A stretch of 64,000 bases of DNA from Luteibacter sp. 9135 (GTDB taxonomy: Bacteria; Pseudomonadota; Gammaproteobacteria; Xanthomonadales; Rhodanobacteraceae): contig NZ_JQNB01000001.1 in assembly GCF_000745005.1 (NCBI RefSeq), positions 2,101,501 to 2,165,500 on the forward strand. Reading direction: 5' to 3'. The position numbers and the translations under genes are program-made. Position 1 is the stretch's first letter. Every line of letters starts with the position of its first letter. Shown here in pieces: positions 25,430 to 35,747 of the stretch. Under the pieces are notes generated by a model. The model was not told the origin of the DNA. It made no database searches and saw nothing but the letters and a program-made list of their open reading frames with translations.

Positions 25430-27745
25430 TCAGAAACGGACGTTGGCGGTGAGCATCGCCGAGCGCGGCGTCCCTGGAGTGTAGCGGTAGCCGCTCTTGT
25501 TGATCGCCGCCACGTAGCGCTTGTCGAACAGGTTGTACACGTTGAGCTGGAGGTCGATGTTGCGGTTGATCGGGTAGCTGGCCATCGCGTCGAACACCCA
25601 GTACGCCTTGGTGTACTGCGGCGTGCCCACTGCGCCGTCCGTGCCGCGCAGCAGTTCACCGGAATAGCGCGCGCCGCCGCCAAGGGTCAGGTCGAACGGC
25701 AGGTGATACGTGGTCCAGGATGTGAAGGCCTTCTTCGGCGTATAGGCCAGGTCGTCCGAGCCGTTCTGCGTGACGTTGGTGCCCTTTTCGACGGTGGCGT
25801 CCATGGTGGTGAAGCCGGCGCTGATCGCCCAGTCTTCCGTCAGCTTGCCCAGGGCCGATACCTCGATGCCCTGCACGCGCTTCTTGCCGATCTGGTAATA
25901 GAGCAGGTCGGTCGGGTCCTGCACCAGTTCGTTGGTCACCGTGGTGCGGTACAGCGCGCCGGTCAGCAGCAACCGCGAGTCGAGCAGATCCCACTTGGTG
26001 CCGATCTCGGCGGTACGTGCCTTCTGCGGGTCGAAGTTGGGGTTGTCGGCGCTGTTGCCGGATGCGGACAGCGTGAGCGTGTTGCCGCCCGGCGGCTCCT
26101 GCGACTGGGCCACGTTGATGTAGATGCTGCCGTTGGCGGCCGGCTTGTACAGCACGCCCACCTTGTAGTTGATCAGGTTGTCGCTCTTGGTGGTGTCCAC
26201 GCCGGGCAGGATGCTGCCGGCCGGCAGGCGACCGCACGCGGGGCCATTGCGCGCACCGCAGACCACGAGGCTGCTGAAGTCGGTCTTGTAGTGGTCGAAG
26301 CGCACACCGGCGTTGACCTGCCAGTTCTCGCCGAACTTCAACGTGTCGAACAGGTAGGCCGCGGCGGTGTTGGTCTTGCCGCTCGATACCGCGCCGGTCT
26401 CGTGGTAACGCAGGCCACCCACATCGGAGTACGGCTTGTACAGATTGGCGGCCGGCAAGGTGCTGCCGGTAACGGGACCGAGGCCGATGGTGCGCGCCTG
26501 CTCGTTGGTCAGCTCGATACCGGCGCTGATGTTCTGCGTGACCGCGCCCGATTCGATCGTCGCCGTGAGGTTGGTCTGGTTGGTGGCGATGCGGTTGGAC
26601 TGGTGCTTGAACGTCGGCAGGCTGCGTGCCAGCGTCCAGGTCGACGGATCGGCCGGGTTGGGCGTGAGCAGGTTGGCGGTGGTGCCCATGAACGCGGTCA
26701 GCAGGTAATCCTGCGTGGTGCGGGCCCAGCGCGAGGTGTTGTGCAGCGCCACGGTGTCGTTGACATCGTGCTCGACGATGACGGTGAACATGTCCTGCGT
26801 GACATGGTCGTGGTCCTGGTTGGTGCCGTAGTAGTTGTCTTCGTCGACCTTGCCCGCGCCGGTGAGGAACGCACGGCGATCGGGCGAGGTGTAACCCGGC
26901 AGGCCGATGGTCGGCACGCCGCCGTCGGGCACGTTGTTCTGTTTGATGTGCAGGTAGTCGAGGTAGACACGGGTCGGTGTGCCGAGCCCGAACGCCAGCG
27001 ACGGGGCCACGCCCCAGCGGTTGTTCTCGATACGGTCGCGTCCGGCCACCTGGCTGTCCTGGCCCATGACATTGAGGCGGAACGCCGCGTCGTTGCCAAG
27101 GGCCTGGTTCCAGTCGGCGGTGCCGCGGCGGCGCTGGCCGCTGCCGCCCTGCACCGAGCCGGACACGCCGTTGCCGAGCACCGGCTGCTTGGTCACGAGG
27201 TTGACCGCACCGGTAGGCGCAGTGCGGCCGTACTCCGTGCCGTCCGGGCCCTTGGTGACTTCCACCTGCTCGATGTTGAAGACATCGCGCGACACGGTGC
27301 CCAGGTCGCGCACACCGTCGACGAAGATGCTGCCCGAGGTATCGAACCCGCGCATGTAGATCGAGTCGCCGGTGTTGGTCGAGCCGTTCTCGCCGACGAA
27401 GAACGTGCCCACGCCCGGGCTGTTGCGCAGCGCCTCCGTCAGCGTGGTGGCGCCCTGTTGCTGCATCAGCGCGCGGTTGATCACCTGGATGGTCTGCGTG
27501 GTGTCCAGCAGCGACTGGGTGAACTTGGGCGATGACACCTTGTCCACGCGGTAATCGCTGGAGCGATCGGCCTGCACCTGCATGCCGGGGAGGGCCTGCG
27601 CATCGTTGACCTTGGCCTGCTGGGGCGGCACGACGTCGACAGGCGCGTCGCCGGCGACGACGCCATGGGCGAGCGAAAGTAGGACGGCGGCACCGACGGT
27701 GCGTACCGCGGGTGCGGCGTGCTTGCGGCTGGTGATGAAGGCCAT
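25430..27745 (-). CDS. TonB-dependent catecholate siderophore receptor (Fiu/PiuA-like)
   Basis: A 771-residue outer-membrane receptor. It has a signal peptide ending near GVVAGDA, a plug domain with the siderophore-receptor features [40 protein letters not shown] and [14 protein letters not shown], and a barrel ending in the aromatic MLTANVRF. Plug residues and coupling to piuC fit the Fiu/PiuA group that imports iron-catecholates and siderophore-like antibiotics. A Fur-box-like site lies about 160 bases upstream, so iron repression is likely. Ligand identity is inferred from family only. Confidence 0.9.
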
Positions 27746-27905
27746 GGGGATCCTTGCAAAGACGATGGACGAAAAAGGCTGGGCCGGGTCACGCGCACGG
27801 CACCGCCCCTCGATAGCCGATGGCTCCCGCGGAAGTTGGATACGTGCCCTGACGATGCTGTGGCGCGGGTCTGTGTTAACCCGGCGTGATGCACATCGTA
27901 AGCTT

Positions 27906-27924
27906 AATGAGAACGATTCGCAAT
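27906..27924 (-). promoter_or_regulatory. Candidate Fur box upstream of the siderophore receptor
   Basis: AATGAGAACGATTCGCAAT resembles the 19-base Fur consensus GATAATGATAATCATTATC in its AATGA half and NATTNNCAT-like half. It is the AT-rich core of the 303-base divergent gap (27746-28048) between the receptor and an orphan response regulator. Nothing else was recognised in that gap. Confidence 0.6.
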
Positions 27925-28048
27925 ATTGTCGTAAGCCGTGCCTAAGCCCGGATTACGAATAATGCGTCCGTGGTGCCGTTTACGTAGCCCGGATTCCTCG
28001 CGGTAATGCGATACCAGAGGCCTGCGGGTGCGATCGAAGGAGTGGGCC

Positions 28049-28714
28049 GTGAATATCATCGTCGTCGAGGATGACGTCCGACTGGGCGCCGCCATCAAGC
28101 GTGCACTGGAGCATCTCGCCTACACGGTGACATGGTTGCGTACCGGAGCCGAGGGCCTCGAGGCATTGCGTAGCGAGTCGGTGGATCTGGTGCTGCTCGA
28201 CCTGGGTCTTCCGGAAATCGACGGCATCGAGGTGATCGCCGAGGCGCGCCGGCTCGATGTCAGGACCCCCATCATCGTCATGACGGCGCGGGACTGCGTC
28301 CAGTCGCGCGTGCGTGGCCTGGACGCCGGGGCGGATGATTACATGACCAAGCCCTTCCATCTGGACGAACTCGCCGCGCGTATCCGCTCGCTGGCCCGGC
28401 GCGCCCGCGGTCTTGCCGACAATCAACTGGACGCGGGAGGCCTGTCGCTCAACCTCAGCACGCTGGAGGTCACTTTCCAGGAGAGGCCCGTCGAACTGAC
28501 CCGCCGCGAGTTCGCCCTGCTGCGGATACTGATGGAGCGCCACGGGAAGATCGTTCGCCGCGACTCGATCGAGAGTTCGGTGTACGGCATGGACTCGGAC
28601 GTGGGCCGGAACGCGCTGGAAGTCCTGGTCCATTCCCTGCGCCGCAAGCTTTGTCCCGAGGCCATCCGCACCGTTCGCGGTTTCGGTTATATGGTGCCCA
28701 GTGACCTGGTCTGA
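28049..28714 (+). CDS. OmpR/PhoB-family response regulator, no adjacent kinase
   Basis: A 221-residue regulator. The receiver domain has the acidic pocket VEDD (residues 6-9), phosphoacceptor Asp51 (LVLLDLGLP) and Lys in MTKPFHLDE. It is joined to a winged-helix DNA-binding domain (ELTRREFALLRILM ... HSLRRKL ... TVRGFGYMV). The GTG start follows GAAGGAG at the right distance. No histidine kinase gene is beside it. It is closely similar along its whole length to the regulator at 41.0 kb, including the FHLDELAARIRSLARR linker, so it may be a duplicate that shares that system's kinase. It is divergent from the siderophore receptor. Confidence 0.93.
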   Translation: MNIIVVEDDVRLGAAIKRALEHLAYTVTWLRTGAEGLEALRSESVDLVLLDLGLPEIDGIEVIAEARRLDVRTPIIVMTARDCVQSRVRGLDAGADDYMTKPFHLDELAARIRSLARRARGLADNQLDAGGLSLNLSTLEVTFQERPVELTRREFALLRILMERHGKIVRRDSIESSVYGMDSDVGRNALEVLVHSLRRKLCPEAIRTVRGFGYMVPSDLV

Positions 28715-28811
28715 ACGGCCTCGGCTGAGGACATCGAATCGTCATCCTGCCGACAGCAATATCTAAGGTAAGTGCGGCATCGTGGGCGGTAGCCCTCCCG
28801 AGAGCCCGCCC

Positions 28812-29927
28812 ATGCGTCCTTTGGCATCGTTTTCCCCCGCCACGTCAGCCGAACCCGCCCGCACGCCGATGCACGGCAAGGCGGCTGCATGGCGCCGTCA
28901 CCTCGCCGCCTGGCTGGCGCGCCACCTGATCGCCCCGTCCAGGAATCTCGTCGGTGCGGGTGGGCTGCCCACCTCGGGCATCCAGCGCATCCTGGTCTGC
29001 CGGCCCAATCACCGGCTGGGCAACACGCTGCTGCTGACGCCGCTGCTGGTCGAGATCGAGCGCCGCTTCCCCGGCGCGGAGGTTGACCTGCTCTCGGCCG
29101 GTCCGGCCGCCCATGCGGTGTTTCGCGGGTTCGACATCGTCGGCGACTGCACGACCCTCGATCGTCATGCCGTCCGACGCCCGCTCGCCACGCTGGGTGC
29201 GTTGCGCAAACTGCGCTCGCGTCGCTATGACCTGGTGATCGACGCGGCGGCGGGTTCCTCGTCGGGCCGCATCGCCAGCGCCATGGCAAAGGCGCGCTAC
29301 CAGCTTCGTACAGAAGCCATGCCGACCGACGGCGGCACGACGCATCTTGCCGCACGCCCGGTGCAAGCCCTGCGCTGGGCGCTCGGCGTGACAAGCGACG
29401 CCCAGGTGCCGCCCCTCGACGTACGGTTGTCGGACGCCGAGCGGCAAGGCGGTCGCGAGGCCCTGGCTCGCGTATTACGCGAGGTCGACGGACGGCACCT
29501 GCCGGTGCTGGCCATCTTTCCCAATGCCACCGGGTCCAAGCGACTTCCCGCCGACTGGTGGGGCAGCTTCATGCAGGCGTTGCTGGATCGCCTCGGCGAG
29601 AGCTGCGTGGTCGAACTCGTCTCCGCCGACGGCCAGTCGCGCCTGGGTGGCGGCTATCCCACCTATTACACCAGCGATCCGCGCAAGCTGGCCGCCTTCA
29701 TCGAGGCGTCGGGCACGTATATCAGCGCGGATTGCGGCGTGATGCACCTCGCCGCGGCAACGGGGGCGACCACCGTCGGGCTGTTCGGCCCGACCGATCC
29801 GGAACGCTACGCACCGTATGGTCGCGACAATACCGCCGTGGCCTGCGACGACGGCTGCCCGCGGCAGGCGGCGGCACGTGTGGCTATGCATCTGCTGCGC
29901 CTAAGGCTTCAAGCACGAAGCACGTAG
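28812..29927 (+). CDS. Glycosyltransferase family 9 (heptosyltransferase-like)
   Basis: A 371-residue protein of the ADP-heptose:LPS heptosyltransferase superfamily. The N-terminal Rossmann half starts ILVCRPNHRLGNTLLLTPLL. The C-terminal half has the donor-site segment SADCGVMHLAAATGATTVGLFGPTDPERYAPYG typical of GT9 (quoted as the motif region around residues 305-337). It probably transfers a heptose or other sugar to lipopolysaccharide core or a related glycan on the cytosolic face. The ATG at 28812 was chosen over a GTG 30 bases upstream. No other LPS genes are adjacent. Its 3' end overlaps the convergent methyltransferase gene by 19 bases. Confidence 0.82.
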   Translation: MRPLASFSPATSAEPARTPMHGKAAAWRRHLAAWLARHLIAPSRNLVGAGGLPTSGIQRILVCRPNHRLGNTLLLTPLLVEIERRFPGAEVDLLSAGPAAHAVFRGFDIVGDCTTLDRHAVRRPLATLGALRKLRSRRYDLVIDAAAGSSSGRIASAMAKARYQLRTEAMPTDGGTTHLAARPVQALRWALGVTSDAQVPPLDVRLSDAERQGGREALARVLREVDGRHLPVLAIFPNATGSKRLPADWWGSFMQALLDRLGESCVVELVSADGQSRLGGGYPTYYTSDPRKLAAFIEASGTYISADCGVMHLAAATGATTVGLFGPTDPERYAPYGRDNTAVACDDGCPRQAAARVAMHLLRLRLQARST

Positions 29928-30781
29928 TAGGGAACGATGCCGTCGGTGCCGGTAGGCGCGACGCTGCGCTGTATCCGTAAACCATGGCGTGCCGCGCCTT
30001 GGTGGACGTCGACCAGCACCGGCGTATGGCCGAACAGGACGACAAGCCCTCCGCGTCGCACACTCGGTACCAGCCGGTCGAACAGGGCGTCAGCCTGCGC
30101 CCGCGTCACCACTTCCGCATTGAGAAAGCGGAGGATCAGGGCGTCGCAGGAGGCCGGCGGTACGAGTGCGGCATCGGCGAGGGAGAAGGTGACCGGCCCA
30201 TCGGGGTGACGGGTACGCGCGGTCCGGATCATGTCCGCCGCCCGATCCGATCCCTCGAAGTGGAGCCGTGGACAGGCATGCGCCATGGCCACTACGAAAT
30301 CCCCGGTGGAACAGGCCGGATCGCGTACCAGCGCGCCGTCGGGCAGCTCCGTACGCAGTGTGGCGGCACACAGCGCACGCATGTGGCGCTCGCCGGCTGC
30401 CAGGTCCTCGGCGCGTTCGGCCATGCGCGCCCAGAACGCCGGCGGACAGACGAACTCATGGCCCCATGTGCGCATCGGCGCGATGGGGAAGTGGATCACG
30501 GCGAGCGGATCGCGGCGCACGAGCGCCATGAAAGCCTTGGCCTCCTGACGGCGACGATGGGTCGCGCTCACCTCGATCGCGTCCGCATGCTCGTACAGCA
30601 CGCCATCCGAGCCCAGCAGATGGTGCGGCCGGATCACGTTGCAGGCGTGCCGAGGCTCGTCACGCGTCGCCGGCGCGACATGACCGATCCAGCGATAAGC
30701 GCCGGCGCGCAGCAGAAAGTAACCGTGCGCGGATCGTGGGTCGTCGATCCGCCAGTGCCGCCGGCTCGTCGCCTCATTCAT
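29909..30781 (-). CDS. SAM-dependent methyltransferase of the YcaO cassette
   Basis: A 290-residue protein with a class I SAM-binding fold in its C-terminal half. Motif I is VRDPACSTGDFV (about 152-163), followed by the acidic FEGSDRAADM (about 175-184) and a GGLVVLFGHTPVL strand. The N-terminal 140 residues (WRIDDPRSAHGYFLLRAGAY onward) match no domain I know and may bind the substrate. The ATG overlaps the end of the YcaO gene by eight bases, so the two proteins are made together. It is probably the tailoring enzyme of the peptide cassette, methylating the peptide or a modified residue. Its target is inference. Confidence 0.78.
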   Translation of the reverse strand: MNEATSRRHWRIDDPRSAHGYFLLRAGAYRWIGHVAPATRDEPRHACNVIRPHHLLGSDGVLYEHADAIEVSATHRRRQEAKAFMALVRRDPLAVIHFPIAPMRTWGHEFVCPPAFWARMAERAEDLAAGERHMRALCAATLRTELPDGALVRDPACSTGDFVVAMAHACPRLHFEGSDRAADMIRTARTRHPDGPVTFSLADAALVPPASCDALILRFLNAEVVTRAQADALFDRLVPSVRRGGLVVLFGHTPVLVDVHQGAARHGLRIQRSVAPTGTDGIVPYYVLRA

Positions 30782-32000
30782 GGCCGGCGATCCGCGCGGC
30801 CGGAAAACCCGGAACGATGGGGTTGCCGTGGGCGACCAGGAAATAGCGATCGAAACCCGGCACGAGCACCTGGCAGACCACGACACCCCGGCAGGCCGCG
30901 TGGATCACGTGCAGCAAGGGGCGATAGCCTTCTTTCGCCAGACGATGTAACGCACGCGTGAGCAAGGCGCGCGGCGAGGTGTGTCGAAGGCGAGTGGGCA
31001 AGGGCACGGCGACCGTGCGTCGCTTGCGTAGCAGTGCAGGCAGGTCGGCCACGCAGGCGCGATGGGCACGCGGCCACGGACGCAACCGAAGCTCGGCGCG
31101 CTCGAGCTGATGAAGAACGCTTTCCTCGGCGCGGGCGAGCAGCTCGAGTTTTACCAGTTCGTGCAGGGCGCGCGACAGGGCGTGCCCAGGGCAGCCGGAT
31201 GCGCCCGCGCCGTAGAGCTGCACCGGATGGGCGGCATGCTGCGTGAAGGCGAGGTAGCTGTAAGCGGCGCGATGCGTACCGATGTCCAGTACGGTGACGG
31301 TATAGCCCAGCATGTCTTCCGTGCCGTTCCACAGTCGGGTGGACACGGGGTCCAGCGTACTGCGATCGATCACGCGCACCGGTGCAATGGCATCGGCGTC
31401 ATGGAAATGCACGCGAAGGAAGTGGGAGACGTCGTCGCGCTCGATGCACTCGTTGAGCGCATGCAGCGCGGCCTCCGTGAAGGTCGAACCGATGGCCGTT
31501 CCGCTGTTGCCGGCATAGCGGCGCAGGCCTGAATAGTCGAAGGTGTCGGCCTGCATGCGCCGGTCGATATACGTGGGACGAAACAAGGCGAGGGGATGCT
31601 CCTGTGCGCTCCCGTCGTGGAAGCTGGTAAATCGGCGGACGGCGAGCCGTGCCTCCGGCTGTGCATCCAGCAGCGCATCAATGGGCGCACCGAGGCCCCG
31701 CGTGACGTCGCGGGCGGTCGCGACCACCGACGTGAGCGAGCAGTCATCGTGCAGGGAGATGAAATGCTCGAAGGCCTCGAAGAGCCCGCCGACCAGCGCG
31801 CTGTCGCGGTCGCCCTTGCCGACGCCACGACACACCGGGCGACCGGCGTCGTCGCTCAACTGAACGACGGTCGCAAAGGGGCCGGACCCATGTTCCGTCG
31901 CGTGCCAGCGCAGCCCTCGCGCGGCCAGTTCGTTGTCGATGCGTCGCCGCGCGGCTCCCAGGGGAACGTCGCGTTCGAATGGCAGGGTGGCGTTGGCCAT
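30774..32000 (-). CDS. YcaO-domain peptide-modifying enzyme
   Basis: A 408-residue protein with the YcaO ATP-binding signatures: GKGDRDSALVGGLFEAFEHF (61-80) and GSTFTEAALHALNECIERDD (171-190), the Ser/Glu and E-x-x-E-R-D patterns that hold ATP and Mg. YcaO enzymes activate peptide-backbone amides with ATP to make azolines, thioamides or amidines. It is shorter than the housekeeping YcaO of E. coli (586) and carries no fused ThiF/E1-like or TfuA domain; none is encoded nearby. GGAGGAAC precedes the ATG. Upstream lies a 41-codon peptide gene and a terminator; downstream an overlapping methyltransferase. The reaction catalysed here is unknown. Confidence 0.88.
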   Translation of the reverse strand: MANATLPFERDVPLGAARRRIDNELAARGLRWHATEHGSGPFATVVQLSDDAGRPVCRGVGKGDRDSALVGGLFEAFEHFISLHDDCSLTSVVATARDVTRGLGAPIDALLDAQPEARLAVRRFTSFHDGSAQEHPLALFRPTYIDRRMQADTFDYSGLRRYAGNSGTAIGSTFTEAALHALNECIERDDVSHFLRVHFHDADAIAPVRVIDRSTLDPVSTRLWNGTEDMLGYTVTVLDIGTHRAAYSYLAFTQHAAHPVQLYGAGASGCPGHALSRALHELVKLELLARAEESVLHQLERAELRLRPWPRAHRACVADLPALLRKRRTVAVPLPTRLRHTSPRALLTRALHRLAKEGYRPLLHVIHAACRGVVVCQVLVPGFDRYFLVAHGNPIVPGFPAARIAGHE

Positions 32001-32017
32001 CGGGTGGTTCCTCCATG

Positions 32018-32045
32018 AAAAAAGGCGAGGCCTCCTGGCCTCGCC
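32018..32045 (-). terminator. Attenuator-like terminator between precursor and YcaO genes
   Basis: On the minus strand, GGCGAGGCC-AGGA-GGCCTCGCC followed by T6: a perfect 9-bp stem, starting eight bases after the peptide gene's stop codon and ending just before the YcaO ribosome-binding site. Partial read-through would give more precursor than enzyme mRNA, as is common in RiPP operons. Confidence 0.9.
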
Positions 32046-32053
32046 CGGGTGGA

Positions 32054-32179
32054 TCAGTCGTCGCTGGTGAGCGCCGCGGCTTCCAGTGGGGTGAGGTGTT
32101 CCACCGTCTCCGTGGCCGGCATTCCGGTGGTGTCTTCGTTGACATCGACGTAGGCGATGCCGCTCATCATGTAGCCCAT
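32054..32179 (-). CDS. Candidate RiPP precursor peptide, 41 residues
   Basis: A short gene directly upstream of the YcaO gene on the same strand. The ATG has AAGGAA about nine to fourteen bases before it. The peptide begins MGYMMSGIAYVDVNEDTTG, continues MPATETVEHLTP and ends LEAAALTSDD. It is acidic, has no Cys, two Ser, seven Thr and two C-terminal Asp. It resembles no known protein to me. Position, size, own terminator and the two tailoring enzymes behind it make it the likely substrate. Where leader ends and core begins is not apparent. Lack of Cys rules out thiazole chemistry and leaves Ser/Thr cyclodehydration, thioamide or amidine formation. Confidence 0.75.
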   Translation of the reverse strand: MGYMMSGIAYVDVNEDTTGMPATETVEHLTPLEAAALTSDD

Positions 32180-32210
32180 GGTGGTGTTCCTTGTGAGTGG
32201 GAAAGGACGT

Positions 32211-32233
32211 GCCGGTGCGGTTATCGCACCGGC
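32211..32233. other. Perfect 9-bp hairpin in the precursor leader region
   Basis: GCCGGTGCG-GTTAT-CGCACCGGC, about 30 bases upstream of the precursor ATG. There is no T tract on either side, so it is not a classical terminator. If transcribed with the precursor it would lie just ahead of the ribosome-binding site. Confidence 0.6.
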
Positions 32234-32350
32234 GCGCTCAGATTCGCGCACACGCACCGACATGGGCATCGGGCTTTTCGCTGAGATTCTGTAGGGGAAT
32301 GCCGGGGGTGAGCAAAAGCATCCCGTACTTGCGATCGAAAGCGCTTGCCC

Positions 32351-32389
32351 GATCTTCACCTGTTTGTCGCCCGAGCGAAGCATCTCCGC
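32351..32389 (-). pseudogene. Remnant or duplicate of the M13 peptidase gene 3' end
   Basis: These 39 bases match 33373-33411, the last codons of the M13 peptidase gene, with three mismatches and in the same orientation. On the minus strand the frame reads EMLRSGDKQVKIG against KMVRSGDKQVKIW at the real C-terminus; the Trp and stop codon are lost here. It may be a decayed second peptidase gene or one of a pair of insertion-site repeats. The DNA between the two copies carries the NTF2-like gene. Confidence 0.7.
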
Positions 32390-32702
32390 GCAATGATTCA
32401 ACCCCTGGGCGAAAGTAGATATAAGTCGTGGGATGGGTATGCGCCGATTCGGCCTGCGTCGTTCAACGCCATGAATCCGCACAGGTGTATAGCCGTGTGT
32501 CGAAAGCCGCGCAGTGGACGCGGCGAGTTGTGCCTGGAGTGAGCCGGCGATGTGTTCGGTTTAACGCCATTGGCCCCGGCGTGAGAATATATACCCAGCC
32601 TTCTGGCGCACAGGGCGGGCTCACATATGCGTGACATGGGTTGGAGCAACTTAAATGTTGCAAGGAGAGCCCTTGCCCGTGCTCATATGGAAGAGATGCA
32701 CC

Positions 32703-33125
32703 ATGTCATTCAACGCAGATAGCGCGTACTTCAATCCGGTATTTGATGACATCGCACAAGCATTCGTGGGAGAGTTTTACAGGCGGTTATGTGATCAGCC
32801 TGCTGATAGTTTGAAGTCGCTCTTCAACGTCGAGCTTTCTGTGCTGTCAATCGATGGGAAAGTCGGCAGAGGCAAGGAGGGGATTGACTTGCTAGAGGCA
32901 CGTTCCGCCGTGGTTTCGGGTGGCGGAGGCAGCTTCGGATTCAGTGGGCCCGTAACTGCTCTGCCGACGAGAGATGGCGGCGTGCTCGTCGTTGCTAGAG
33001 GGCGGTTTTCCCATGGATACGACGGCTCAGTTTTTACTGACGTATTCATCCTTTCGCCCAAGGGAACAGGCTTCTTTATCGCTAACTACATCAGCGTAAA
33101 GACATTGATGGATCCGTCGGCGTAA
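32703..33125 (+). CDS. NTF2-fold domain protein
   Basis: A 140-residue protein that by motif order resembles the nuclear-transport-factor-2 domain of eukaryotic NTF2/G3BP proteins: AQAFVGEFYRRLCDQPADSL at the N-terminus, LSVLSIDG with a following GKEGIDLL, then GVLVVARGRFSH, FTDVFILSPKG and FFIANYISVKTL. The fold often binds small ligands or mediates dimerisation; no catalytic residues are evident. Base and codon use is clearly more AT-rich than neighbouring genes, suggesting transfer. GGAAGAG precedes the ATG. It stands alone, divergent from the peptide cassette, and its role is unknown. Confidence 0.65.
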   Translation: MSFNADSAYFNPVFDDIAQAFVGEFYRRLCDQPADSLKSLFNVELSVLSIDGKVGRGKEGIDLLEARSAVVSGGGGSFGFSGPVTALPTRDGGVLVVARGRFSHGYDGSVFTDVFILSPKGTGFFIANYISVKTLMDPSA

Positions 33126-33308
33126 CAGAGGACGTTGCAGCCGAGTTTTACGTGTATCCGTTTGGGGCTCTAGGCCGATAAATTCGGTCACAAGTCATCG
33201 CAAACGGCGCTGGCGACCGGTTGTCCAGTCGAGTCGATATGTTGTCTGGCTTGCGGTCCCATTAGTGTGGCCGTCGACTTATAGCGGAGATCGTGTTGCC
33301 CTATAAAA

Positions 33309-33340
33309 CGAAAATGCCGCGCGACAGCGCGGCATTTTCG
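33309..33340 (-). terminator. Bidirectional terminator after the M13 peptidase gene
   Basis: CGAAAATGCCGCGC-GACA-GCGCGGCATTTTCG: a perfect 14-bp stem with A/T runs on both sides, 26 bases beyond the peptidase stop. It can stop transcripts from both directions, including any from the NTF2-like gene. The remainder of the 33126-33366 gap shows nothing else. Confidence 0.9.
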
Positions 33341-33366
33341 TCACCGAGCCCTTGGGCGAGCGGCGA

Positions 33367-35505
33367 TTACCAGATCTTCACCTGCTTGTCGCCCGAGCGA
33401 ACCATCTTCGCATCCGGCTTGCACTGGAACGCGGTAGCGAAGGCTTCCATGTTCGACGGTGCACCGATGGCGCGCAGCGATGCCGGGGCGTGCGGGTCGG
33501 TGTTGAGGTAGAGCATGGCCTGCTTCTCACGCACGCTGCCGCGCCACACGCGGGCCCAGTTGAGGAAGAAACGCTGGTCCTGGGTGTAGCCGTCGATCTT
33601 CGACTCCGCTTCCTTCGGGTTTTTCTTCAACGCTTCCTGCAGGGCGTCGTATGCCACGGCCGTGCCGCCCAGGTCGGCGATGTTCTCGCCCAGGGTCAGC
33701 TTGCCGTTGACGTGCAGGTCCGGCTTGTCTTTCAGCGGGGTGTATTCGTCGAATTGCTTCACCAGCTTGGCGGTGCGCTCGTCGAACTTGGCGCGGTCGG
33801 CCTTGGTCCACCAGTTGCTGTTGTTGCCTTCGCCGTCGAACTGGCTGCCCTGGTCGTCGAAGCCGTGGCTGGCCTCGTGGCCGATCACCGCGCCGATACC
33901 GCCGTAGTTGATCGCGTCGTCGCCGTTGGCGTCGAAGAACGGCGGCTGCAGGATGGCGGCCGGGAAGTTGATCGTGTTGTCGGTCGGGTTGTAGTACGCG
34001 TTGACCGTCTGCGGCGTCATGCCCCATTCCATGCGGTCGGTCGGCTTGCCGATCTTGGCGATGTCGTAGTGGTAGTTGAACTTGCCGGCGGCTTCGACGT
34101 TGCCGTAGTAGTTCTCGCCATTGATGTCCAGGCCCGACCAGTCACGCCACTTGTCCGGATAGCCGATCTTGGGCAGGAAGGTGTTCCACTTGGCGATGGC
34201 CTTCTGCTTGGTCTCGTCGCTCATCCAGTCGAGCTTTTCCAGGCGTGCCTTGAGCGCGGTGCGCACGTTGTCGACCAGCTCGCTGGCACGTTGCTTGGCT
34301 TCTGGCTTGAACACCTTGGCCACGTACAGCTGGCCCAGGCCTTCGCCCATGGACGTATTGACGGTGCCGAGCACGCGCTTCCAGCGCGGCTTCTGCTGCG
34401 GCTGGCCGGCGAGGGTCTTGCCGTAGAAGTCGAACTTGTTGTCCTGGAAGGTCTTGGACAGGTACGGCGAGGCACTGTCGATGGCGTGGAAGCGCAGGTA
34501 GGCCTGCCAGGTGGAGACCGGCGTGGTCGCCAGCATCTTGTCGAATTCCTTGAAGAACTTCGGCTGCGACAGCGAGAAGCCCTTGTCGACGGTGACGCCC
34601 TGGGCGGCAAAGAACTTCTCCCAGTTGAAATGCGGGGTGACCTTGTCCGCTTCCGCCACGCTGACGAAGTGGTACTGGTTTTCCGGTGCGCGCAGTTCCA
34701 CCGGCGAGAGCGAGGCCGCGGCGAGCTGGGTCTCGAATTTCATGATGGCGTCGGCCTGCGTCTTCGCATCCGCGTCGGACACGCCGGCCAGGGTCAGCGT
34801 CTTGACGATGTAGTCGACATACGCCTTGCGGTTGTCGGCCTGCTTGGGATCGGTGTAGTAATCCTTGGTCGGCAGGCCCAGGCCGTCCTGCTGGGTGAAG
34901 CCGATCTGCATCTTGGCATTCTTGAAGTCGGCGCCGGCGCCGAAGCCGAACACGTAGCCGTTGCCGTCGTTGAAGCTGCTGTCGAGGAAATCCACGATGT
35001 CCTGCGGCGACTTCAGCGCATCGATCTTCGCCAGCTCCGGCTTCAGCGGTTCGATGCCGGCCTTTTCGATGGCGTCCTCGTTCATGCCGGAGCGGTAGAG
35101 CAGGCCGATCTTCTGTTCGATCGAGCCGGCCTTGGCGCTGGCCGCGCCCTTGTCCATGGCGTCAACGATGTCGTGCTGCGTGTTGAGGCTGGTTTCCGCC
35201 AGCTGGTCGAAGGCACCCCAGCGGGTGCGGTCGTCGGGAATCGGGTTGGCGGCCACCCACTTGGCATTGACGAAGCCGTTGAAGTCGTCGCACGCGTCGA
35301 TGCCGGTGTCCAGGTCGGCCACGTTGAACGTGGGGCCGGCGGGCGCGGCGGCGGCCGTGGTGGCCGGGGCGGGCGCGCTGCCCGTCGCGGCCGGGGCGTT
35401 GGCGGCCGGCGCGGCGGTGTCGGCATCGTTGTGCTGGCTGCACGCGGTGCCGGCGAGCGCGATGCTCAAGGCCAGCGCGAGCGGCTTCAGGTACTGCTTG
35501 GTCAT
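33367..35505 (-). CDS. M13-family (neprilysin/PepO-like) zinc metallopeptidase
   Basis: A 712-residue protein with a lipoprotein-type signal (LSIALAGTAC, Cys at about 22) and an Ala/Pro-rich linker. The mature M13 domain starts IDACDDFNGFVNAKWV. The zinc site HEASH is at 543-547, the third ligand Glu in ENIADLGG near 607, and NAYYNPTDNTINFPA supplies the substrate-binding Asn-Ala-Tyr segment. The C-terminus is the standard VKIW. It probably degrades peptides in the periplasm or at the cell surface. The ATG at 35505 gives the signal peptide. A strong terminator follows. Confidence 0.94.
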   Translation of the reverse strand: MTKQYLKPLALALSIALAGTACSQHNDADTAAPAANAPAATGSAPAPATTAAAAPAGPTFNVADLDTGIDACDDFNGFVNAKWVAANPIPDDRTRWGAFDQLAETSLNTQHDIVDAMDKGAASAKAGSIEQKIGLLYRSGMNEDAIEKAGIEPLKPELAKIDALKSPQDIVDFLDSSFNDGNGYVFGFGAGADFKNAKMQIGFTQQDGLGLPTKDYYTDPKQADNRKAYVDYIVKTLTLAGVSDADAKTQADAIMKFETQLAAASLSPVELRAPENQYHFVSVAEADKVTPHFNWEKFFAAQGVTVDKGFSLSQPKFFKEFDKMLATTPVSTWQAYLRFHAIDSASPYLSKTFQDNKFDFYGKTLAGQPQQKPRWKRVLGTVNTSMGEGLGQLYVAKVFKPEAKQRASELVDNVRTALKARLEKLDWMSDETKQKAIAKWNTFLPKIGYPDKWRDWSGLDINGENYYGNVEAAGKFNYHYDIAKIGKPTDRMEWGMTPQTVNAYYNPTDNTINFPAAILQPPFFDANGDDAINYGGIGAVIGHEASHGFDDQGSQFDGEGNNSNWWTKADRAKFDERTAKLVKQFDEYTPLKDKPDLHVNGKLTLGENIADLGGTAVAYDALQEALKKNPKEAESKIDGYTQDQRFFLNWARVWRGSVREKQAMLYLNTDPHAPASLRAIGAPSNMEAFATAFQCKPDAKMVRSGDKQVKIW

Positions 35506-35747
35506 GGATGTCCCTCGATGGAAGTGACGTACATCGGCACCCCCCGGGCGCCGCACTTCCCGAGGATAACGGCTGGCGGGCCAGCGCAGGGCCAACCGTG
35601 ACGAAAGTCATGGATCGGCACATTCCGCAAGTAATCGCGGCGAAGTGACGCCGGGCTGTCATACGCGTTTCGCAAACTGGAGGGCAATCGCGTCGCAGGG
35701 GGCGCGGTCCCCAGGCAGTGCGATCGTCATACCGAGGAATCATCGTC

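Follow-up and report, generated by a model that had tools for sequence, protein, structure and literature searches.

The 64,000-nucleotide stretch of Luteibacter sp. 9135 analysed here (contig NZ_JQNB01000001.1, positions 2,101,501 to 2,165,500; hereafter the window) contains a compact cassette in which a short peptide gene is followed by a stand-alone ycaO gene and by a gene for an S-adenosylmethionine (SAM)-dependent enzyme. Judged by sequence, the cassette appears to join bottromycin-like YcaO logic to an isonocardicin-synthase-like enzyme. The preferred reading, for which the chances seem evenly balanced, is that the three genes make a small ribosomally synthesized and post-translationally modified peptide (RiPP) by removal of the start methionine, formation of an N-terminal amidine by YcaO, and transfer of a 3-amino-3-carboxypropyl (ACP) group to a tyrosine by the SAM enzyme. 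Tentatively, such products could be regarded as a new class of RiPPs, in which just two enzymes install the N-terminal amidine and, from SAM, a 3-amino-3-carboxypropyl ether on Tyr. All elements of the cassette lie on the minus strand:

32054..32179, minus strand: precursor peptide gene, 41 codons, ATG start, MGYMMSGIAYVDVNEDTTGMPATETVEHLTPLEAAALTSDD
32171..32179, minus strand: Met-Gly-Tyr start of the peptide; Gly2 in most of the family, Tyr3 in all examined peptides beside an ACP-transferase-like gene
32023..32046, minus strand: intrinsic terminator between the peptide gene and ycaO; 10 pairs, 4-base loop, T-run
30774..32000, minus strand: stand-alone ycaO, 408 residues, Pfam PF02624, E 3e-26
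29909..30781, minus strand: isonocardicin-synthase-like SAM enzyme gene, 290 residues, ATG at 30781

A first-pass annotation of the sequence had already listed the peptide gene, the terminator, the 408-residue YcaO and an overlapping SAM enzyme on one strand, and all of these are present. The peptide gene is preceded by a Shine-Dalgarno-like AAGGA and has a coding-like third-position guanine-plus-cytosine (GC) content of 0.83; its 41-residue product lacks Cys and ends in DD, just as had been described. Its core is predicted to be N-terminal, from Gly2, and its C-terminal part is a predicted follower with the motif HLTPLEAAAL. The SAM-enzyme gene and ycaO overlap by 8 bases, and a mechanical list of open reading frames (ORFs) gives the former a longer version with a GTG start and 325 residues. 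In a scripted scan, terminator-like hairpins occurred in 9 of 63 peptide-ycaO spacers and in 0 of 63 shuffled spacers; the window and three Pantoea copies were counted among the 63, and 5 of 68 rows had no DNA to scan. The terminator probably lets the peptide be made in excess over the enzymes.

The same order of peptide, ycaO and SAM-enzyme gene is found in another Luteibacter, Pantoea, Yersinia nurmii and Pseudomonas. Scanning of the genome collection with a YcaO profile yielded 64 loci, from Pseudomonas, Pantoea, Yersinia nurmii, Stenotrophomonas, Lysobacter, many actinomycetes and a few others. A SAM-enzyme homologue follows ycaO in 13 of the 64, and also in a second Luteibacter and on a Pantoea plasmid. 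Strong homologues of the SAM enzyme (E 1.5e-36 or better) were present in 15 of 249 Pseudomonas genomes, all 15 directly behind a YcaO of this cassette's family; 40 of the 55 matching genomes in this search matched weakly (E above 1e-6, partial) and were not used. Because the gene order recurs across genera and the peptide has coding-like third-position GC, the cassette is more than a chance arrangement. That these genes are merely neighbours by accident, with no biosynthetic relationship, is barely conceivable in view of this recurrence and of the Gly2, Tyr3 and follower patterns described below.

The distribution of the cassette is nonetheless sporadic within Luteibacter, where the YcaO was found in 3 of 23 genomes and the SAM enzyme in 2 of 23. 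The genome from which the window derives contains a single match to this YcaO at E 0.001, and among 369 genomes drawn across the class only this same genome and one partial match were recovered at E 1e-20. Furthermore, the pairing of YcaO and SAM enzyme is not universal, as the homologue from Streptomyces G824 has no YcaO match in the 17 kb around it. Although 212 of 246 Streptomyces genomes matched the SAM enzyme, the listed matches other than G824 had E values of 5e-10 or weaker and covered mostly the SAM-binding part, and were not used.

Candidate precursors were picked without regard to sequence in 73 loci (the 64 profile loci, the window and eight others) by taking, among the small ORFs upstream of ycaO that follow a Shine-Dalgarno sequence, the best one; 62 loci gave an ORF and 11 had none that qualified. 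Gly2 was present in 49 of the 62 picks, the window included, compared with 94 of 1478 control ORFs obtained by applying the same rule elsewhere in the same loci. This supports the first-pass proposal, in which a compact cassette of RiPP type probably acts on the peptide encoded upstream; homologous ycaO genes that lack a peptide, which that annotation had named as grounds for abandoning the proposal, are not the rule in these loci. The peptides otherwise diverge widely, but most have an acidic tail and share a C-terminal L[TS]xxExxxL motif, which is also present in the bottromycin follower. The bottromycin precursor, as read from a Streptomyces genome, opens with MGPVVVFDC. Against the family peptide profile it outranks 1997 of the 1998 scored shuffles in which Met-Gly was retained, albeit with a weak score of 10.2 bits. 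NCBIfam returned no family for the window peptide at E up to 1, nor for this peptide and seven relatives at E up to 10.

Two further observations on peptides came from this survey. In a Pseudomonas locus (L014:5877-5954), a shortened, follower-less relative of the peptide, MSYMLSWLANAVANRNERELEQSAG, occurs in a genome with no SAM enzyme and with a TonB receptor gene behind ycaO; this locus is perhaps a decaying cassette. A Vibrio plasmid (L008:7843-7965) and Atopobacter (L069) have in common another Met-Gly peptide type, MGNKRSEIN.../MGRRRSEIN..., and on the Vibrio plasmid an ABC transporter gene comes after YcaO.

Comparison with characterised YcaO proteins points to the type of chemistry that might be expected. 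A profile built from ten family members scored 189 bits against one bottromycin YcaO, taken as macroamidine-type, and 38 bits against the other, thiazoline-type protein, and all 75 family sequences are nearer to the former than to the latter. Six solved YcaOs also matched, namely MJ1094 (59 bits), MusD (46), TruD (42), LynD (37), E. coli YcaO (23) and M. kandleri YcaO (19). From gene order we infer that the 189-bit protein is BtmF and the 38-bit protein BtmE; in the available portion of the bottromycin study, BtmF is tied to the macroamidine by gene deletions and BtmE is the implied thiazoline former (PMC5103208). The first-pass remark that no partner protein is present holds for the cassette, in which there is no E1-like or ocin-ThiF partner, and no TfuA was detected by Pfam among the scanned window ORFs. 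The YcaO C terminus, VPGFPAARIAGHE, has no PxPxP. Together with the peptide anatomy, these similarities suggest that YcaO acts on the N-terminal core to form an amidine.

A different possibility is that YcaO thioamidates the Gly1 carbonyl using an outside sulfur donor, as archaeal YcaOs do on the McrA glycine, and that no ring is formed. MJ1094 (6pe3), which we take to be such an archaeal enzyme, is the best sequence match among solved structures, and the predicted YcaO structure (predicted local distance difference test score, pLDDT, 93) matches YcaO structures with archaeal members ranking first by fold; the Gly, moreover, is largely invariant. Yet the macroamidine-type bottromycin YcaO scores about three times the bits of MJ1094, a thioamide would not require the Gly to be fixed immediately behind Met, as it is, and a weak sub-threshold match to the McrA-glycine thioamidation family lies far under its cut-off, at 18 versus 365 bits. 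Thioamidation is accordingly considered distinctly improbable.

Similarly, YcaO could form an azoline at Ser/Thr, or could carry out ATP-dependent peptide cleavage as in the Protein Data Bank (PDB) title of MusD (7u58), which is among both the sequence and the fold matches. A Ser does occupy position 6 in many Pseudomonas peptides, and one within an [EA]SLD stretch recurs among many actinomycete relatives. However, no Ser/Thr/Cys position is common to the whole peptide family, the position-6 Ser is missing from some peptides beside the SAM enzyme (L072, L086), and MusD reaches 46 bits against the 189 bits of the bottromycin protein. With neither a PxPxP C terminus nor an E1-like partner in the cassette, such chemistry appears improbable.

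As a separate observation, a Legionella quinlivanii locus (L056:4325-7242) carries two tandem YcaO genes with an acidic 57-residue ORF upstream, and one of these YcaOs scores highest of the 75 sequences against the macroamidine-type bottromycin YcaO (148 bits).

The third gene had been annotated as a methyltransferase with about 140 N-terminal residues that could not be placed. A profile of 16 homologues, compared with the PDB, gave 35 matches, of which isonocardicin synthase (8zhu) scored 195 bits over positions 38-316 of 319, whereas the next best reached 37 bits and the other 34 covered no more than the SAM-binding part at the C terminus. The model predicted for the protein (pLDDT 91) likewise aligns to 8zhu/8zhv with template modelling (TM) scores of 0.78-0.81, compared with 0.31-0.47 for the other 46 chains listed. 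The previously unplaced residues thus match the N-terminal part of isonocardicin synthase, and the methyltransferase label is probably wrong: from both sequence and modelled fold, the protein is an isonocardicin-synthase homologue and a predicted ACP transferase. Because of this homology, the expected mass shift is about +101 Da rather than +14.

The isonocardicin synthase acceptor is a phenol, in keeping with the nocardicin G complex in the 8zhv title, and the substrate is a small non-ribosomal product. We know of one characterised member of the family. Both 8zhu and 8zhv are titled as a 3-amino-3-carboxyltransferase of nocardicin biosynthesis, and the enzyme (NAT) is described as an ACP transferase of that pathway in the accessible part of PMC10491745.

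That a sole characterised relative guides the assignment also lends some weight to a competing view, in which the SAM enzyme is an ordinary methyltransferase that has retained an isonocardicin-synthase-like N-terminal domain and performs Tyr O-methylation or some other methylation; Pfam and several database names indeed label it a methyltransferase. It is nevertheless an unlikely view, since the isonocardicin synthase match is full-length, the two proteins have the stretches DPACSTG/DAACSTG, RFLNAEV/RHLNAFV and GHTPVL in common, and a Tyr, with its phenol, is conserved in the adjacent peptide.

If the SAM enzyme has kept the chemistry of isonocardicin synthase, it would need a phenol acceptor, and the peptide is therefore expected to hold a fixed Tyr. 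Tyr3, as part of a Met-Gly-Tyr start, occurs in 24 of 24 distinct peptides beside a SAM-enzyme gene and in 3 of 43 without one; when the 67 peptides are thinned greedily at 45% identity to 11 representatives, the corresponding figures are 4 of 4 and 0 of 7. The underlying table was curated by hand and required Gly2, on which it is uninformative. L008, L009, L010, L014, L040, L055, L056, L059, L062, L065, L066, L067, L070 and L071 were left out for having no clear peptide, a non-Gly2 peptide or a distant YcaO, as were the window itself (L001), loci already represented (L079, L082, L088, L090, L091) and L093, where the contig ends. Omission of L008, L010 and L071 weakened the association, since their peptides have Gly2 but not Tyr3 and the SAM-enzyme gene was not matched there. 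L047 and L060 each have two peptides, and the one kept was that nearer ycaO, which bears Tyr3. The pattern extends to Luteibacter, where both cassettes of G010 lack Tyr3 and the genome contains no match to the SAM-enzyme gene at E 1e-15.

In the preferred reading, the start Met would be removed, by analogy with bottromycin, exposing Gly1 of Gly-Tyr-Met-Met and leaving a window peptide of calculated mass 4214.886 Da, while the acidic C-terminal part with L[TS]xxExxxL would, from the family-wide anatomy of the peptides, serve as a follower recognised by the enzymes. Homology suggests that YcaO would activate a backbone amide near the N terminus with ATP, and that the free Gly1 amine would then attack this amide to close an amidine ring with a change of -18 Da; the ring could be a four-residue macroamidine as in bottromycin or six-membered as in streptamidine. 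The SAM enzyme would attach the 3-amino-3-carboxypropyl arm to Tyr. No protease or exporter gene was found within the Luteibacter cassette, and the follower may be cut off by a protease encoded elsewhere. Nine Pseudomonas loci and one from Yersinia, 10 in all, add an alpha/beta-hydrolase gene that could fill a role of this kind. The two hydrolases scanned match Pfam Abhydrolase_1 and, more weakly, the S33 aminopeptidase family, and the genome from which the window comes contains, at another position, a partial match (43%, 122 residues) to the one from L015.

Several observations weigh against this amidine and ACP-transfer scheme. Both features, Tyr3 and the SAM enzyme, cluster in a single proteobacterial clade (support 94/78), and common descent thereby inflates their association. 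Four YcaO rows in this clade lack the gene: L003 and L010 are without Tyr3, L022 has Tyr3, and L014 has it in a degenerate peptide. Outside the clade, the actinomycete loci L047 and L060 have a Tyr3 peptide, each alongside a second peptide without Tyr3, but no gene match in the genome. Gly2 is absent from 13 of the 62 sequence-blind picks; in eight of these loci the region does contain a Gly2 peptide or start, ranked lower or missed by the rule, and in five (L009, L055, L059, L062, L065) no Gly2 peptide was accepted, L065 and L059 having peptides of similar type with Val and Ile in its place. On the enzyme side, formation of the bottromycin macroamidine also uses the amidohydrolase BtmI, according to the portion of PMC5103208 cited above, and there is no amidohydrolase in the window cassette. 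The assignment of BtmE and BtmF among the bottromycin ORFs comes from gene order. BtmF falls on a long branch outside the YcaO family in the tree, and the family that includes the window protein is for this reason to be regarded as a relative of BtmF rather than as a group containing it. Finally, the window YcaO has Lys at position 284, in a conserved ExxQ stretch where relatives nearly always have Gln, as does the 84%-identical homologue P0005; this particular copy may therefore be impaired.

The resemblance to bottromycin extends over the Met-Gly precursor start, an N-terminal core (its position here judged from conservation), a C-terminal follower with L[TS]xxExxxL, and a stand-alone YcaO without an E1-like partner that is most similar to the ORF taken as macroamidine-type. 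Unlike the bottromycin cluster, however, the cassette has one YcaO rather than two and adds an ACP-transferase-like enzyme, its peptide has no Cys and does not match NCBIfam NF033414, and when 15 distinct ORFs of the region 21826-43020, including 12 that lie beyond the cassette, were scanned with Pfam, no radical SAM methyltransferase, cytochrome P450 or amidohydrolase was detected. With streptamidine (ami), the system shares a predicted N-terminal amidine from YcaO, the lack of a Ser/Thr/Cys-rich core and a wide distribution, as far as the accessible text of PMC8442711 describes them. The Met-Gly peptides had suggested membership of that group, which was ruled out on the same partial account: the ami precursor has a leader and a central core, and the pathway needs AmiB (E1-like or RiPP recognition element-like), a hydrolase and a dehydrogenase and lies by FecBCDE-like genes, whereas the window cassette has no AmiB, hydrolase, dehydrogenase or Fec-like genes and its predicted core is N-terminal. 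The absence of an E1-like or ocin-ThiF partner, of PxPxP and of Cys further separates the cassette from the azole formers (thiazole/oxazole-modified microcins and linear azole-containing peptides), and the absence of TfuA among the scanned ORFs from the YcaO-TfuA thioamide formers.

With regard to the SAM enzyme, the match to NAT extends over full-length sequence and fold, yet the context differs, in that here the gene belongs to a RiPP-type cassette whose peptide carries a Tyr. Microcin C offers a precedent of ribosomal origin, although there the acceptor of MccD is a phosphoramidate and not a Tyr phenol. As is predicted for the ACP transfer by the SAM enzyme, the ACP/aminopropyl transfer involving MccD takes place on a ribosomal-peptide-derived compound, and the isonocardicin enzyme is apparently not homologous to MccD, as stated in the part of PMC10491745 available.

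Beyond the cassette, the first-pass claim that no protease lies nearby did not hold in its literal form, as an M13 protease gene is located at 33367-35595. M13 homologues occur in all 23 Luteibacter genomes searched (22 of 23 at 82% identity or more, G006 at 41%), most of which lack the cassette, and the gene is thus not part of the cassette. The site between M13 and a Fiu-type receptor gene at 25430-27745 (window 25430-35595) varies in Luteibacter, being empty in some genomes and holding the cassette in three, while in others the gene next to M13 matches either the heptosyltransferase-like gene or the 217-residue gene of the window. The surroundings of the close M13 homologue were compared at 22 loci. 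At seven of them a fiu homologue of at least 80% identity begins in the flank and nothing matching YcaO lies between the two genes; a further two loci contain a distant TonB receptor in that place and another a partial match at 74%. The receptor gene directly behind ycaO in Luteibacter G010, and the TonB receptor gene behind ycaO in Pseudomonas L014, could point to a connection with iron uptake. The Fiu-receptor neighbourhood is, however, taken as more likely a matter of position than of function, because the Luteibacter cassette sits in this variable site.

Upstream of the cassette, an NTF2-like ORF (32655-33125) has a GC content of 0.53 versus 0.67 for the window and is possibly foreign. In 22 of the 64 loci, all actinomycete, a homologous gene comes after YcaO (L036:7376-9517), and the one representative scanned has a NACHT nucleoside triphosphatase domain (Pfam E 5e-12), which is unexpected next to a RiPP cassette. 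On a Pantoea plasmid, a gene for a FeeM-like N-acyl amino acid synthase (L005:12247-13035; Pfam E 3e-26) lies just behind the cassette.

By title and abstract in the open-access literature, to which the search was confined (subscription papers and supplements lying outside it), no paper on such a cassette was found among the matches listed, and the term 'isonocardicin synthase' was not found at all. The actinomycete relatives may be included in the supplement of PMC8442711, which surveyed YcaOs of actinobacteria in 2021.

Should the proposed chemistry be correct, a stand-alone YcaO and a short peptide would suffice for amidine formation, in a system far simpler than the bottromycin cluster. 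The two-enzyme route would, to our knowledge, be the smallest amidine pathway known, and would provide a system for asking how partnerless YcaOs read a follower and choose an amide. RiPP chemistry would likewise gain amino-carboxypropylation of tyrosine, new for such peptides and the first use we know of for an isonocardicin-synthase-type enzyme on a ribosomal peptide. The analysis also suggests a different role here for a gene family that mostly goes by the label 'methyltransferase'. The cassettes occur in Pseudomonas and Luteibacter, in which gene removal should be practicable, and the combination of an amino-carboxylate arm with an amidine could make the product a metal-binding or signalling molecule.

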